64,000 nt of DNA. It comes from Lampropedia hyalina DSM 16112 (GTDB lineage Bacteria > Pseudomonadota > Gammaproteobacteria > Burkholderiales > Burkholderiaceae_C). The position numbers were made by a program, and so were the translations under genes. The stretch covers positions 62,001 to 126,000 of the forward strand of contig NZ_FQUZ01000005.1 in assembly GCF_900129055.1 (NCBI RefSeq), given 5' to 3'. Under the pieces are notes generated by a model. That model ran no database searches. It saw only the letters and a list, made by a program, of their open reading frames with translations, and was not told the DNA's origin. Shown here in pieces: positions 15,627 through 60,106 of the stretch. Every line of letters starts with the position of its first letter. Within the stretch, counting starts at the first letter, position 1.

Positions 15627-15908
15627 TTACTTAACAGGCAGTGGCCGCAACAGCAGCCACTGCACACTGGCCAGCACCACCACCAGCAGCGCGTAGGTCA
15701 GCATGGAGCCATCCTGCCCGGTCAGCGGCAAACCCAGCAGCAGCACCAGACTGCCACTCAAACCCAGGGCAGCCCAGTTGGCCAGCAGCGCGAGGCGGCA
15801 GGCATAGCCCTTCCAAATCACTCGGGTACTGAGGGCCAGCAACAGCCCCAGCCCCCAGGCGGGCAGGCACAGGCAGAGCAGATGAAAAAGCAGGGTTGGG
15901 AGGGGCAT
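15627..15908 (-). CDS. Small hydrophobic membrane protein, unknown function
   Basis: About 93 aa with three likely membrane spans (LLFHLLCLCLPAWGLGLLLA, a second around LLANWAALGLSG..., a third around YALLVVVLASVQWLLL). I do not recognise a family. The start is uncertain: the ATG at 15908 lacks a good ribosome site, and the frame stays open upstream into the 267-bp inverted-repeat element, which suggests the upstream part is not coding. It lies tail-to-tail with the CoA-transferase gene, 18 bp apart. Confidence 0.4.
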   Translation of the reverse strand: MPLPTLLFHLLCLCLPAWGLGLLLALSTRVIWKGYACRLALLANWAALGLSGSLVLLLGLPLTGQDGSMLTYALLVVVLASVQWLLLRPLPVK

Positions 15909-16058
15909 AACACGGGTCAAAGCCGCCTGTTGCAGCCATATCGGCGAAATAACGGAATGCCAGACCGCCACGCCTTGCGATGGCGCACCAGTGGGCCATG
16001 CACAAATCCAATCGCTGCGATAGCCAGTTTGCAAAGACAAACCGGTGCAATCGGCGCG

Positions 16059-16325
16059 GGGCGTATCATCCATGAGATTCACCCCCGCGTTGGAGTCCAA
16101 AAAGGCTGTGAGCAAGGCGCAAAACACAGCAAGGCTTTATTGCCTTGCGAGGCTTTGCAACGCCGCGCACGGCCTTTTTGGGCCCAACCCTTCGGGCCAG
16201 CGTGCCCCGACAGGCCACTCGTCGTTGCACACCTTGCCCGTATCGACATACGGGCGGCGGCGTGCGCCTAGATTGGCCTGTCGGGGCACACTGGCGCGGG
16301 GGTGAATCTCATGGATGACACGCCC
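16059..16325. mobile_element. 267-bp nested inverted-repeat element (MITE-like), upstream of hemA
   Basis: The ends are 31-bp inverted repeats (16059-16089 and 16295-16325) identical at 30 of 31 positions. Inside lie two further long hairpins. Hairpin A pairs about 16089-16110 with 16168-16188 with few mismatches. Hairpin B pairs 16195-16216 with 16274-16295 almost perfectly and has a smaller perfect hairpin, GCCCGTAT/ATACGGGC (16236-16255), at its centre. The whole element can fold into a three-way cruciform. No transposase or target duplication is visible. Short open frames inside it have no family resemblance. It ends 4 bp before the putative hemA -35 box. Confidence 0.75.
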
Positions 16326-16329
16326 TAGG

Positions 16330-16358
16330 CTGGCATACATCAACCGGCATTCTATAAT
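16330..16358 (+). promoter_or_regulatory. Putative sigma-70 promoter of hemA
   Basis: CTGGCA at 16330-16335, a 17-bp spacer, and a perfect TATAAT at 16353-16358. The predicted transcription start, 7 nt after the -10 box, is the A of the hemA ATG, so the mRNA would be leaderless. No Shine-Dalgarno is visible before the ATG, which agrees. Confidence 0.6.
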
Positions 16359-16364
16359 TCAGTC

Positions 16365-17660
16365 ATGGCAGTATGGACATTAGGCATCAACCACACGACC
16401 GCACCGATTGATCTGCGCGGTCGTTTTGCTTACGCGCTCGACCAGATTGCGCCGGCCCTGCACGCGCTGCGCCAGAATCTGGCAGGCCAGAGCAGCAATG
16501 CCGTGGAAACCGCCATTCTCTCCACCTGCAACCGCACCGAAATCTACTGCTGCGCCCCGGCCAGCCAGATGCAGACCTCGCTGGACTGGCTGGCGCACAG
16601 CGGCGGTGTCAGCCCCGAAGCCCTGCGCCAGCATTCCTACCTGCTGGAAGACGGCCAATCGGCACGCCATGCCTTCCGTGTGGCCAGCGGGCTGGACTCG
16701 ATGGTGCTGGGCGAAGCGCAGATTCTCGGTCAGATGAAAAACGCGGTGCGCGTGGCCGACAAGGCAGGCGCGCTGGGCAGTACGCTGAACCAGTTGTTCC
16801 AGCGTTCCTTCGCCGTGGCCAAGGAAGTGCGCACCAGCACCGACATCGGCGCGCACTCCATCAGCATGGCCGCTGCCGCCGTGCGCCTGGCCAATCAGTT
16901 GTTCGAGGATTTCTCGCGCCTGAAAGTGCTGTTCGTCGGCGCAGGCGAGATGATCGAACTGGTCAGCACCCACTTTGCCGCGCAACGCCCGGAATCCATT
17001 GCCATTGCCAACCGCACGCTGGAGCGCGGCCAGAAACTCGCCGACCGGCTGGGGGCACAGGCCGTGCGCATTGCCGATTTGCCGGCACGCCTGCACGAAT
17101 TCGACATCATCGTCACCTCCACCGCCAGCAGTGTGCCCATCATCGGGCTGGGCGCGGTGGAACGTGCCCTGAAAAAACGCCGCAACAAGCCCATGTTCAT
17201 GGTCGATCTGGCGGTGCCGCGCGACATTGAACCCGAAGTGAACGAGCACGACAACGTCTATCTCTACACCGTGGACGATCTGGCCCACGTCGTGCAATCG
17301 GGCAAGGCCAACCGGCAGGCCGCCGTGGAGCAGGCCGAAGCCATCATCGATACCGGCGTGCAAAGCTTCGTGCGCTGGCTGGAGCAGCGCAACCCACACA
17401 CCGGGGTCGTGCCGCTGATCCAGCAGCTCAACACCCAGGCCGATGCCTGGAGCCAGCAGGAAATCCAGCGTGCCCGCAAAATGCTGGCCAAGGGGCAGGA
17501 CGTGGATGCCGTGCTGCAAGCCCTGGCACGCGGCCTGTCGCAAAAAATGCTGCATGGCACAATGGCCGAACTGCGCAATGCCGACCAGATTGAGCGCGAG
17601 CAGACCACGCAACTCGTCTCCCGCCTGTTTCTGCGCGGTGAAGCCACCACAAGGCATTAG
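16365..17660 (+). CDS. hemA: Glutamyl-tRNA reductase
   Basis: 431 aa. It reduces glutamyl-tRNA(Glu) to glutamate-1-semialdehyde, the first step of C5 haem synthesis. The N terminus [16 protein letters not shown] and the catalytic cysteine C55 in [10 protein letters not shown] are present, then the NADPH domain with VGAGEMIEL and the C-terminal dimerisation helices. The start codon sits 6 nt after a consensus TATAAT, which suggests leaderless translation. Downstream, prfA follows after 122 bp without an obvious terminator; hemA-prfA-prmC is a conserved order in many proteobacteria. Confidence 0.97.
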
Positions 17661-32281: not shown

Positions 32282-32369
32282 CTAGGGAAGGTCTGCAAAA
32301 CTCTTTCGGTAAGCCCGCGCCCAGTGGCGGGATGCGGGCGGCGCAACGGGTTTTGCAGACCTTCCCTAG
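32282..32369. mobile_element. 88-bp palindromic miniature element, copy 1 (between tadA and tadB)
   Basis: The ends are perfect 20-bp inverted repeats (32282-32301 and 32350-32369), starting with CTAG so that TA borders the core on each side. The interior is GC-rich. It matches copy 2 (54237-54399) in inverted orientation: 34 bp next to one end are identical and the other side differs by two bases. A transcript through it would form a long hairpin in the tad mRNA. Confidence 0.8.
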
Positions 32370-53911: not shown

Positions 53912-54469
53912 GCTGTGTACCTTGTTGTATGCCATCAGCCCAGGCCGATGGCAATGAAATGGAGGTTTGCGGGCACGAAAGTCTCTCCCCCGTCCGCAGC
54001 CGCACAGCACAACGCTGGCACAGCCACACTGGCGGTACTGCACCCGGAAGCGGCCACCGCCCCATTCAGGCCGGATGTACACTCCGTGATGACGGATGCA
54101 GCAATTGCGGGATACTCCCTTTCGGGGACTTTCGGGAAGTCGAACCTATGTATGTGGTCAAACTTCCCGAAGGCGACGTATTAAACCACAATTCGCCCGG
54201 CAGTGCCTGCGCGCCCTGCCCGGTTGCACCACCCTAAGGAAGGTCTGCAAAACCCGTTGCGCCGCCCGCATCCCGCCACTGGGCGCATCGCCGCGTTGGC
54301 TTTTGCGGTCAATAGCCCCGCTATTGACCGCAAAAGCCGCCTTGCGCTGCATCCCACTGGCGGGCGCGGGCTTACCGCAAGGGTTTTGCAGACCTTCCCT
54401 AATGCTGTACCATTTCACCCCCTGAACCGATTCCCCGACCCGCGCCCCGGCATGCCCGGCATCCGCTCC
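53912..54469. other. Intergenic region between terC and the DUF815 ATPase gene
   Basis: 558 bp. It must hold divergent promoters. The only clear structure is the 163-bp palindromic element at 54237-54399; outside it I see no conserved signal. An open frame runs through the element into the ATPase gene, but its translation matches no family, so I regard it as a by-product of the repeat. Confidence 0.5.
54237..54399. mobile_element. 163-bp palindromic miniature element, copy 2, with a nested perfect hairpin
   Basis: Terminal inverted repeats of 19 bp (54237-54255 and 54381-54399; 18 of 19 match) are flanked on both sides by TA (54235-54236, 54400-54401), like a TA target duplication. Next to the left end 34 bp equal copy 1 read inverted. 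About 75 bp absent from copy 1 occupy the centre and contain a perfect 19-bp hairpin with a CCC loop (54298-54338). TA duplication is the hallmark of the IS630/Tc1-mariner superfamily, so a related transposase may mobilise it; that is inference. Confidence 0.8.
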
Positions 54470-58408: not shown

Positions 58409-60106
58409 TCAATTCTTTCTGGACTTTGCCCTGGAACGGGCGACCACAGGGCTTGCAGCAGCCCCGTCGAGCATTTCCCGTGCGTGGGCGCGGGTGGTGG
58501 CCGTGATGGTTTCGCCCCCCAGCATCCGCGCGATTTCTTCCACGCGCTGGGCCTCCTGAACCGGCTGCACGGTACTGCTGACGCTCTGTCCGGTTGGCTG
58601 TTTGCGCACCAGCAGGTGGTGGTGCGCACAGGCCGCCACCTGGGGCAGGTGGGTGACGGCCAGCACCTGCCGGTCGCCACCGAGCTGGCGCATGAGCCGT
58701 CCGACGGTCTCGGCCACTGCACCGCCCACGCCGGAATCGACTTCATCGAAAATCAGCGTAGGAGTAGCCCCCAACTGGCTGGTGGTGACGGCAATCGCCA
58801 GGCTGATGCGGGAGAGCTCCCCGCCCGAAGCAACCTTGCCAATGGGCCGTGGGCTGGCTCCTGCATGGCCTGCCACCTGAAACTCAATGCCATCCAGACC
58901 GTGCGCGGCAGGCTCTGCCAGTGCGTCCAGATGCACGACAAAACGCCCGCCGGGCATTCCCAGTGCCTGCATGGCGGCACTGATGGCCCCGGAGAGCCGG
59001 GGAGCCGCCTGGGCACGCTGGTGTGAGAGTGCCTGCGCCAGCGTCTGGTAGTGCTGCTGTGCCTGTGTCTGCGCGGCCTGCAACTGTTCCAGATCGGCCT
59101 GGTGTTCCAGTGCCGTGAGTTCGTCCTGCCATTGCTGCACCAGCGCAGGCAGTCTATCGGGCGGCACGCGGTAGCGGCGCGCCTGGGAGAGCCATTGTCC
59201 CACCCGTTCATCCAGAGCCTGCAAGGTGTCGGTGTCTGGTTCGGCGGCATCGCCATAGCTGCTGAGGCTGTGGGCCACATCGGCCACCTGATTGGCAGCG
59301 GCTTGCAGAATTTCGCCCCATTCGGCAAAACGCGGCTCCAGCGATGCCTGGGTCTGGAGCAGTTGCAGGGCGCGGTGGATGCCGGTGCTGGCTGCCCCTT
59401 CGTCTTCCAGTGCCGCCCAGGCCTGTCGGGCCGTGTCCTGCAAGGTCTGCGCATGCGACAGGCGGGTGTGGTCGGCGTTGAGTTCTTCCCACTCACCGGG
59501 CCGGGGAGCCAGCTTGGCCAGTTCGCCCAGTTGCCACTGCAACATCTCGCGGCGTTGCTGCAATTGCGCTTCGTTCTGGCGGGCATGTTGCAGGGCCTCC
59601 TGCGCCCTGCGCCAGACCTGCCAGGCCTGCTGCACGGGCTGGGGGTTGCTGCCGGCATAGCCATCGAGCAGGGCGCGCACGGCACTGGCACGGGTCAGGC
59701 TTTGCCAGGCGTGCTGGCCATGAATGTCCACCAAATGTTCGCCCACGGTGCGCAGTTGCGTGGCCGTGGCCACCGAGCCGTTGATCCAGCTTCGGCTGCG
59801 CCCCTGCGTATCCACGGTGCGGCGCAGCACAAGGCCATCGGTAGCGGTGTGATCGAAGCCGTGTTCCGTCAGCCAGTCGAGCAAATCCGGTGGAATGTCG
59901 AACTCGGCAGCGACTTCGGCGCGTTCCTCCCCCTGACGCACCCACAGGGCATCGGCACGTGCACCCAGCACCAGTTGCAGGGCATCGATGAGGATGGACT
60001 TGCCCGCGCCGGTCTCGCCACTGAGCACGGTAAAGCCGGTGTGCAGGTCAAGGTCCAGCGACTGCACGACCACGAAGTGGCGCAACACCATGCGGCGCAA
60101 GGCCAT
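58409..60106 (-). CDS. recN: DNA repair protein RecN (SMC-like ATPase)
   Basis: 565 aa. Walker A GETGAGKS (30-37) and the C-terminal signature LSRISLAIAV and Walker B LIFDEVDSGVGG flank a long coiled coil. RecN acts in double-strand break repair by tethering DNA ends. It starts 1 bp after the nadK stop, a coupling that is conserved across many bacteria. I used the ATG at 60106 because it gives the family start (MALRRMVLRHF); the open frame upstream overlaps nadK. Confidence 0.95.
   Translation of the reverse strand: MALRRMVLRHFVVVQSLDLDLHTGFTVLSGETGAGKSILIDALQLVLGARADALWVRQGEERAEVAAEFDIPPDLLDWLTEHGFDHTATDGLVLRRTVDTQGRSRSWINGSVATATQLRTVGEHLVDIHGQHAWQSLTRASAVRALLDGYAGSNPQPVQQAWQVWRRAQEALQHARQNEAQLQQRREMLQWQLGELAKLAPRPGEWEELNADHTRLSHAQTLQDTARQAWAALEDEGAASTGIHRALQLLQTQASLEPRFAEWGEILQAAANQVADVAHSLSSYGDAAEPDTDTLQALDERVGQWLSQARRYRVPPDRLPALVQQWQDELTALEHQADLEQLQAAQTQAQQHYQTLAQALSHQRAQAAPRLSGAISAAMQALGMPGGRFVVHLDALAEPAAHGLDGIEFQVAGHAGASPRPIGKVASGGELSRISLAIAVTTSQLGATPTLIFDEVDSGVGGAVAETVGRLMRQLGGDRQVLAVTHLPQVAACAHHHLLVRKQPTGQSVSSTVQPVQEAQRVEEIARMLGGETITATTRAHAREMLDGAAASPVVARSRAKSRKN

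Follow-up and report, generated by a model that had tools for sequence, protein, structure and literature searches.

A two-armed miniature element beside hemA in Lampropedia hyalina and a hairpin core common to elements with the ends of two IS families

The inverted-repeat element immediately upstream of hemA in Lampropedia hyalina is a MITE and belongs to a very large set with a common structured interior. One structured interior is found in elements that have the ends of two IS families, IS5 and IS630, and this sharing of a hairpin across unrelated transposon ends hints at an undescribed common function. We think it probable that the full picture joins a MITE moved in trans, an RNA-like module of two arms within it, and an insertion beside hemA that is specific to this lineage.

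The window, i.e. the whole stretch of DNA that was analysed, comprises 64,000 nucleotides of a single L. hyalina DSM 16112 contig and contains the following features.

16059..16325, no strand: two-armed non-autonomous element, whole (inverted ends, folding, copies in own genome)
16059..16089, plus strand: left terminal inverted repeat, 31 bp (end complementarity)
16099..16178, plus strand: arm 1 core hairpin (covariance model R1, 81.0 bits)
16188..16196, plus strand: inter-arm junction CCCTTCGGG, which reads C(UUCG)G on the plus strand
16207..16285, minus strand: arm 2 core hairpin, on the opposite strand (R1, 78.4 bits)
16295..16325, minus strand: right terminal inverted repeat, 31 bp (end complementarity)
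16326..16327, no strand: right-hand TA flank (the left flank, 16057-16058, is CG, not TA)
16330..16358, plus strand: putative hemA promoter, outside the element (consensus match)
16365..17660, plus strand: hemA, glutamyl-tRNA reductase (TIGR01035, 383.9 bits)
54235-54401: second element type, 167 bp from TA to TA, with ends GGAAGGTCTGCAAAACCC

The initial annotation had described 31-bp ends around two hairpins of about 100 bp, and the structure is as it said: the terminal repeats (31 nt, with 205 nt between them) are 97% complementary, and both arm pairs were recovered, at 16097-16113/16165-16181 (88% complementary) and at 16193-16220/16271-16298 (89%). Folding both strands as RNA, as it had also proposed, gave -196.3 kcal/mol for the plus and -200 kcal/mol for the minus strand, far more stable than shuffles that kept the element's dinucleotides (means of -104.8 and -108.1; z = -17.1 and -17.7), none of which folded equally well among 200 per strand.

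A search of the host genome (3.18 Mb in 58 contigs) with the element, likewise proposed at the outset, gave 82 matches at E-values up to 1, including eight full-length copies (query 1-267; contigs C46, which is the window's, C32 twice, C6, C42, C17, C8 and C10) and seven long truncated ones. The full copies are of near-fixed length, at 265-267 bp, and have no transposase gene; of the truncated copies, six run into a contig end and one into a stretch of N, which is what an assembly broken at the repeat would give. Pairwise identity among the full copies ranges from 81.9 to 99.2%, every value below 92% involving a single copy (L009, also L107; G000:C32:93642-93907) in which arm 2 is flipped and the two ends differ, and which is likely a recombinant. 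Another copy in the opposite orientation lies 2.1 kb from it. The absence of a target duplication noted in the initial annotation stands for the hemA copy, because its left flank reads CG, and does not hold for the family, as the flanks of the full copies are TA..TA in five, CA..TA in two and CG..TA only at hemA. Reduced forms also occur: at C31:16757-16857, element positions 1-47 are fused to 213-267, and four loci retain a short piece built of ends, e.g. TA-GGGCGTGTCATCCATTAGATTCGCCC-TA. These end-only scars, three of them between TAs (L096, L102 and L110) and one between CA and TG (L114), would fit deletion between CGCCC repeats. The suggestion that this might be a non-autonomous element is thus well supported, by the multiple copies of near-fixed length, the TA flanks, and the ends of core-bearing relatives, which match those of autonomous ISs.

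For one such relative (L198), a 24-bp end recurs inverted at both ends of two IS630-family ISs, and the end type of another (L247) is found in an IS5-family IS, allowing up to 5 mismatches in both cases:

L296, 1803-1826 and 2938-2961: IS630-family IS, Pandoraea plasmid, L198-type end
L302, 1802-1825 and 2943-2966: IS630-family IS, Methylibium plasmid, L198-type end
L298, 1801-1822 and 2634-2655: IS5-family IS, Nitrosomonas stercoris plasmid, L247-type end

Pfam gives PF13358 for both IS630 elements and, for the IS5 one, PF01609 in one reading frame and PF13340 in the other. The first BLAST E-values of these end matches are weak (5, 0.03 and 0.009), and the IS5 match came among 23 records with no E-value below 0.4, though among the 20 listed it alone has a transposase name; despite this, the case holds because the match position falls at both ends of the IS. 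None of the three has the core inside. For the window's own end type no such autonomous partner was found, and IS5 and IS630 are both candidate families for these ends.

The closed genome G016 (5.3 Mb) provides a second view of the family, with 29 sites that match one end sequence at no more than 3 mismatches, compared to 0 and 1 for controls. These form 12 pairs, 11 of 270 bp and one of 269 bp, with TA at both ends in 9, and beyond them there are one 169-bp pair and three single sites. No gene-sized stretch is enclosed by any of the end pairs, and there is no match to PF13358 or PF01609 in G016, so the parent transposase is either absent there or of another kind. Nor was a parent seen for the window's end type, sought as an inverted end pair around a gene-sized stretch within 1.5 kb on each side of 15 of the 30 retrieved loci. 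The idea that every element-rich genome has an IS630 or IS4/5 transposase was rejected, with PF13358 present in 4 and PF01609 in 7 of 12, and neither in G003, G010, G016, G106 and G217.

On plasmids and phages, the whole element has no match (blastn, E up to 1e-3), and searches of plasmids with the window-type and L246-type ends gave only weak matches (E 5). Core-bearing relatives with other end types do occur on plasmids (L297, L300 and L324-L326), and plasmids of Azotobacter chroococcum and Pseudomonas aeruginosa bear relatives over match spans of 245-270 bp, each with a core. On one P. aeruginosa plasmid the element lies between tandem acyl-CoA dehydrogenase and CoA-transferase genes, a pair that is found on another P. 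aeruginosa plasmid with no element, but the spacers do not align and the two plasmids thus give no clean empty site. Two stretches of viral contigs match the strict core pattern. Automatic folding placed TA at the ends of 37 of 93 untruncated loci, with folds that often overran the element. Among the self-complementary end dinucleotides of single-arm cores, GC is the commonest (64, followed by TA with 55, CG with 29 and AT with 13), so the claim of TA ends does not rest on that count; there are 40 distinct TA..TA elements, out of 119 single-arm cores.

Each arm is a bulged hairpin core of about 80 nt, in which GCAAGGCGC ... GCAACGCCGC flank a variable apical hairpin. The alignment of 37 arm cores has 80 columns, 12 of them invariant, and a nearly fixed geometry of 79-80 nt. 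RNAalifold predicts 21 pairs on this alignment, 17 of which have sequences changed on both sides. A structure written by hand, with its two inner helices one column off, has 91.3%, 31.8% and 26.6% of cells paired in its three helices; its covariation score of 0.530, compared to 0.159 when shuffled, beat 500 of 500 shuffles and every slid version. The cells changed on both sides are also above shuffles, and the number of pairs changed on both sides is not (18 against a shuffle mean of 18.9).

The core is widespread. With BLAST (E up to 0.01), 26 of 60 genomes have a match, our own included, and the relatives found in this way differ in their outer ends in the loci read. The R1 covariance model, the E-values of which are rough, identifies it in 48 of 185 genomes of the class (E up to 1e-4, at most 25 candidates scored per genome) and in 62 of 398 genomes of the phylum (E up to 1e-6, at most 11 candidates per genome), both including L. 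hyalina, with 27 of the 62 lying outside the class. Among the matches listed, carriers of the strict pattern include Comamonas, Acidovorax, Variovorax, Polaromonas, Roseateles, Herbaspirillum and Castellaniella. As side observations, one core lies at a contig end of a Desulfovibrionaceae bin (L192), which may be a true host or a case of mis-binning. One core-bearing hairpin (L054, between 1408 and 1664, in G024) sits, in an array where 12 tRNA genes are called, inside what by eye appears to be a tRNA-Arg gene; no tRNA-Arg is called by ARAGORN at the site of the hairpin. A known Rfam family was rejected, as neither the window nor 20 further element loci (21 sources in all) have a match at the gathering score; a permissive search of 15950-16450 gave 6 matches, all sub-threshold. 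In the literature we recognised no description of this element, although the P. fluorescens R6/R178, P. aeruginosa Pae-1 and Bordetella Bor-1 families could overlap with it.

The two strands of the core are not equivalent. In the outer arm stems of 65 clusters, which are not fully independent and include a few false cores admitted by the core regular expression (at least L212- and L217-), the core-sense strand has 64 G-U against 9 A-C, with 41 clusters leaning to G-U and 5 to A-C. In elements with two arms on opposite strands, the only arm pairs taken into this count, the two arms, each read in its own sense, give 33:4 and 22:1. As a 79-nt unit, the sense strand folds better than the antisense in 72 of 89 distinct cores. 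The asymmetry is not confined to the arm, since in single-arm elements the end repeats are also rich in G-U (36:8, compared to a strong 25:2 in the outer arm stem), with no clear excess in the stretch between (18:11). In the end repeats, the cause may be that left and right IS ends differed from the start and passed this on. Whole arms counted by folding, with loop pairs mixed in, show the opposite strand bias (79 vs 173), and this we put down to the conserved loops making G-U on the antisense strand.

The arrangement of the arms is similarly regular. Of 39 distinct pairs of adjacent arms, several of which are copies within the L. hyalina genome and not independent, 38 face inward, and the one exception is the flipped copy described above. 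Between CCC and GG, 35 of 38 junction triplets read TNC or the complementary GNA, where 4.75 would be expected with equal triplets, and such a junction is a C(UNCG)G RNA loop on one strand. The account of the STAXI motif argues likewise from a UNCG-type loop (PMC2864571). For our element, the strand-asymmetric G-U and the UNCG-type junction lend indirect support to a possible structured RNA, which the initial annotation had offered as one option.

The simplest alternative is that these are plain MITEs, with an interior that is a passenger and stays palindromic through DNA template switching and recombination, and with a core conserved only by descent and by exchange between elements. We regard this as a serious possibility, though one that we would not put at even chances. 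It gains from five own copies (L001, L004, L005, L006 and L007) that have identical substitutions in both ends, at positions 12-16, as correction of a palindrome at the DNA level can yield paired changes without selection. It also gains from the copy with a flipped arm 2, and from the orientation of single-arm cores between tandem genes, which shows no bias (14 sense and 16 antisense by rough ORF calls). The orientation count covers 65 of 96 cores, placed by an ORF heuristic with second arms and cores near contig ends omitted, of which 32 lie between tandem, 14 between convergent and 8 between divergent genes, 6 inside an ORF and 5 at edges. However, passive passengers do not readily account for 12 columns that stay invariant though the stems are rewritten, for a G-U excess that is strand-asymmetric, or for the nearly fixed length of the core.

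On balance, we hold an RNA role with a host factor to be somewhat more likely than a passive palindrome, and not proven. The element inserts at TA and is most likely mobilised in trans by a transposase recognising its ends, and the hemA copy is a lineage-specific insertion. Once the transcript of a neighbouring gene reads through, the module would act as RNA and bind a host factor. The two inward arms would then present one sense core per transcript whatever the orientation of the element. A bolder version, which we offer tentatively and rather doubt, sees in the core an undescribed RNA module, a "parasite of parasites", taken up by unrelated IS5- and IS630-type transposons across Pseudomonadota, since a transcript from either side would bind a common host factor and make the insertion tolerable. 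For instance, the message might be protected or re-processed, or RNA polymerase kept going. If the core does work as RNA, proteobacteria would have in it a very common structured element for which the 21 sources searched give no Rfam match at the gathering score. The likeness inside miniature transposons whose ends differ would then be accounted for, and how small mobile elements come to do no harm within operons could be tested directly. Even if it is passive, a single interior is common to transposons of different families.

It is also conceivable, if unlikely, that the core acts as DNA, in single-stranded or cruciform shape, and is recognised by a transposase or by a DNA-binding factor of the host. 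Each strand has one sense core, the GNA triplet (the complement of the UNCG junction) is stable in DNA, and G-T is better than A-C in DNA too, all of which count for such a reading. Against it, IS5 and IS630 ends are used by different transposases, which makes a core read by one transposase unexpected, and the three autonomous ISs are without it. Additionally, TTCG is described as not particularly stabilising in DNA (PMC2864571).

We consider it very improbable that the element is REP/REPIN-like and owes its movement to a Y1 tyrosine transposase (RAYT). The domain PF01797 is found in 41 of 48 core-bearing genomes of the class compared to 82 of 137 others, but TA flanks and long terminal repeats are at odds with REPIN/RAYT, and neither G158 (73% complete, 20 core matches) nor G203 (95% complete, 6) is among the genomes matching PF01797. 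A requirement for Y1/RAYT was rejected outright, as G106 (100% complete) has 23 core matches and no PF01797.

The neighbouring gene is hemA, as the initial annotation had it, followed by prfA, and the element does end 4 bp before the putative -35 box: the single sigma-70-like match in 15900-16450 (CTGGCA-17-TATAAT, 10/12) starts at 16330 and the element ends at 16325. A local effect of this one insertion on hemA could follow from such proximity. The proposal that it takes part in regulating haem synthesis fares poorly as a conserved role. hemA is present in 9 of 10 genomes of the genus, our own included (G008, 77% complete, has no match), and the R1 model finds the core at hemA in none of the 8 relatives with a hemA match; their loci have two R1 matches of about 15 bits, both within coding sequence. 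Far from being single-copy and present at hemA in all relatives, which together with random drift the initial annotation had named as a refutation, the element is multicopy, and its insertion at hemA is lineage-specific among the genomes examined because these 8 relatives have no core there. A conserved cis-regulator of hemA, which the distance to the -35 match might suggest, is therefore scarcely credible and was rejected for the genus genomes examined, as no relative's hemA carries the core and the remaining own copies sit at other loci.

Elsewhere in the window, the second element type has a core variant (54278-54358, minus strand) that scores 25.7 bits with R1, and a decayed IS5-like copy in the same genome has ends that by eye resemble those of this element. 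At 32283-32368 lies an 86-bp TA-to-TA relative, in which R1 finds no core and which is likely a deletion form of the second type. A weak core match (20.6 bits, minus strand) is seen at 59576-59625.

Several known families of small repeats resemble this element in part, and are set apart here by their descriptions. The Correia/NEMIS repeats of Neisseria also have TA at their ends, terminal repeats, and long RNA hairpins proposed as RNase III targets, but are given as about 107 or 155 bp and armless (PMC2229807), whereas here there are two arms and a three-way junction. CIR, from Caulobacter and Brucella, likewise has TA termini and a pair of hairpin arms with a linker, but is tabled without terminal repeats and with a GANTC motif at the terminal loop (PMC2229807); in our element the ends pair and the conserved bases lie in internal loops. 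ERIC similarly has TA at its ends, a long hairpin and an orientation-dependent effect on messages (PMC2229807), but is presented as a single long stem-loop (PMC2267715). The R0/R2 repeats of P. fluorescens have inverted ends that are those of a resident IS, and a conserved bulged core is not among the features described for them (PMC2718517). Also among the nearest systems are the MITEs of the IS5 and IS630 families. Like them, the element is multicopy, under about 300 bp and without a transposase gene; terminal repeats with TA on both sides are found in 5 of 8 own copies and 9 of 12 in G016, the hemA copy lacking TA on its left, and the L198 and L247 types have ends in common with autonomous ISs. 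Unlike them, one structured interior here spans the ends of two IS families.
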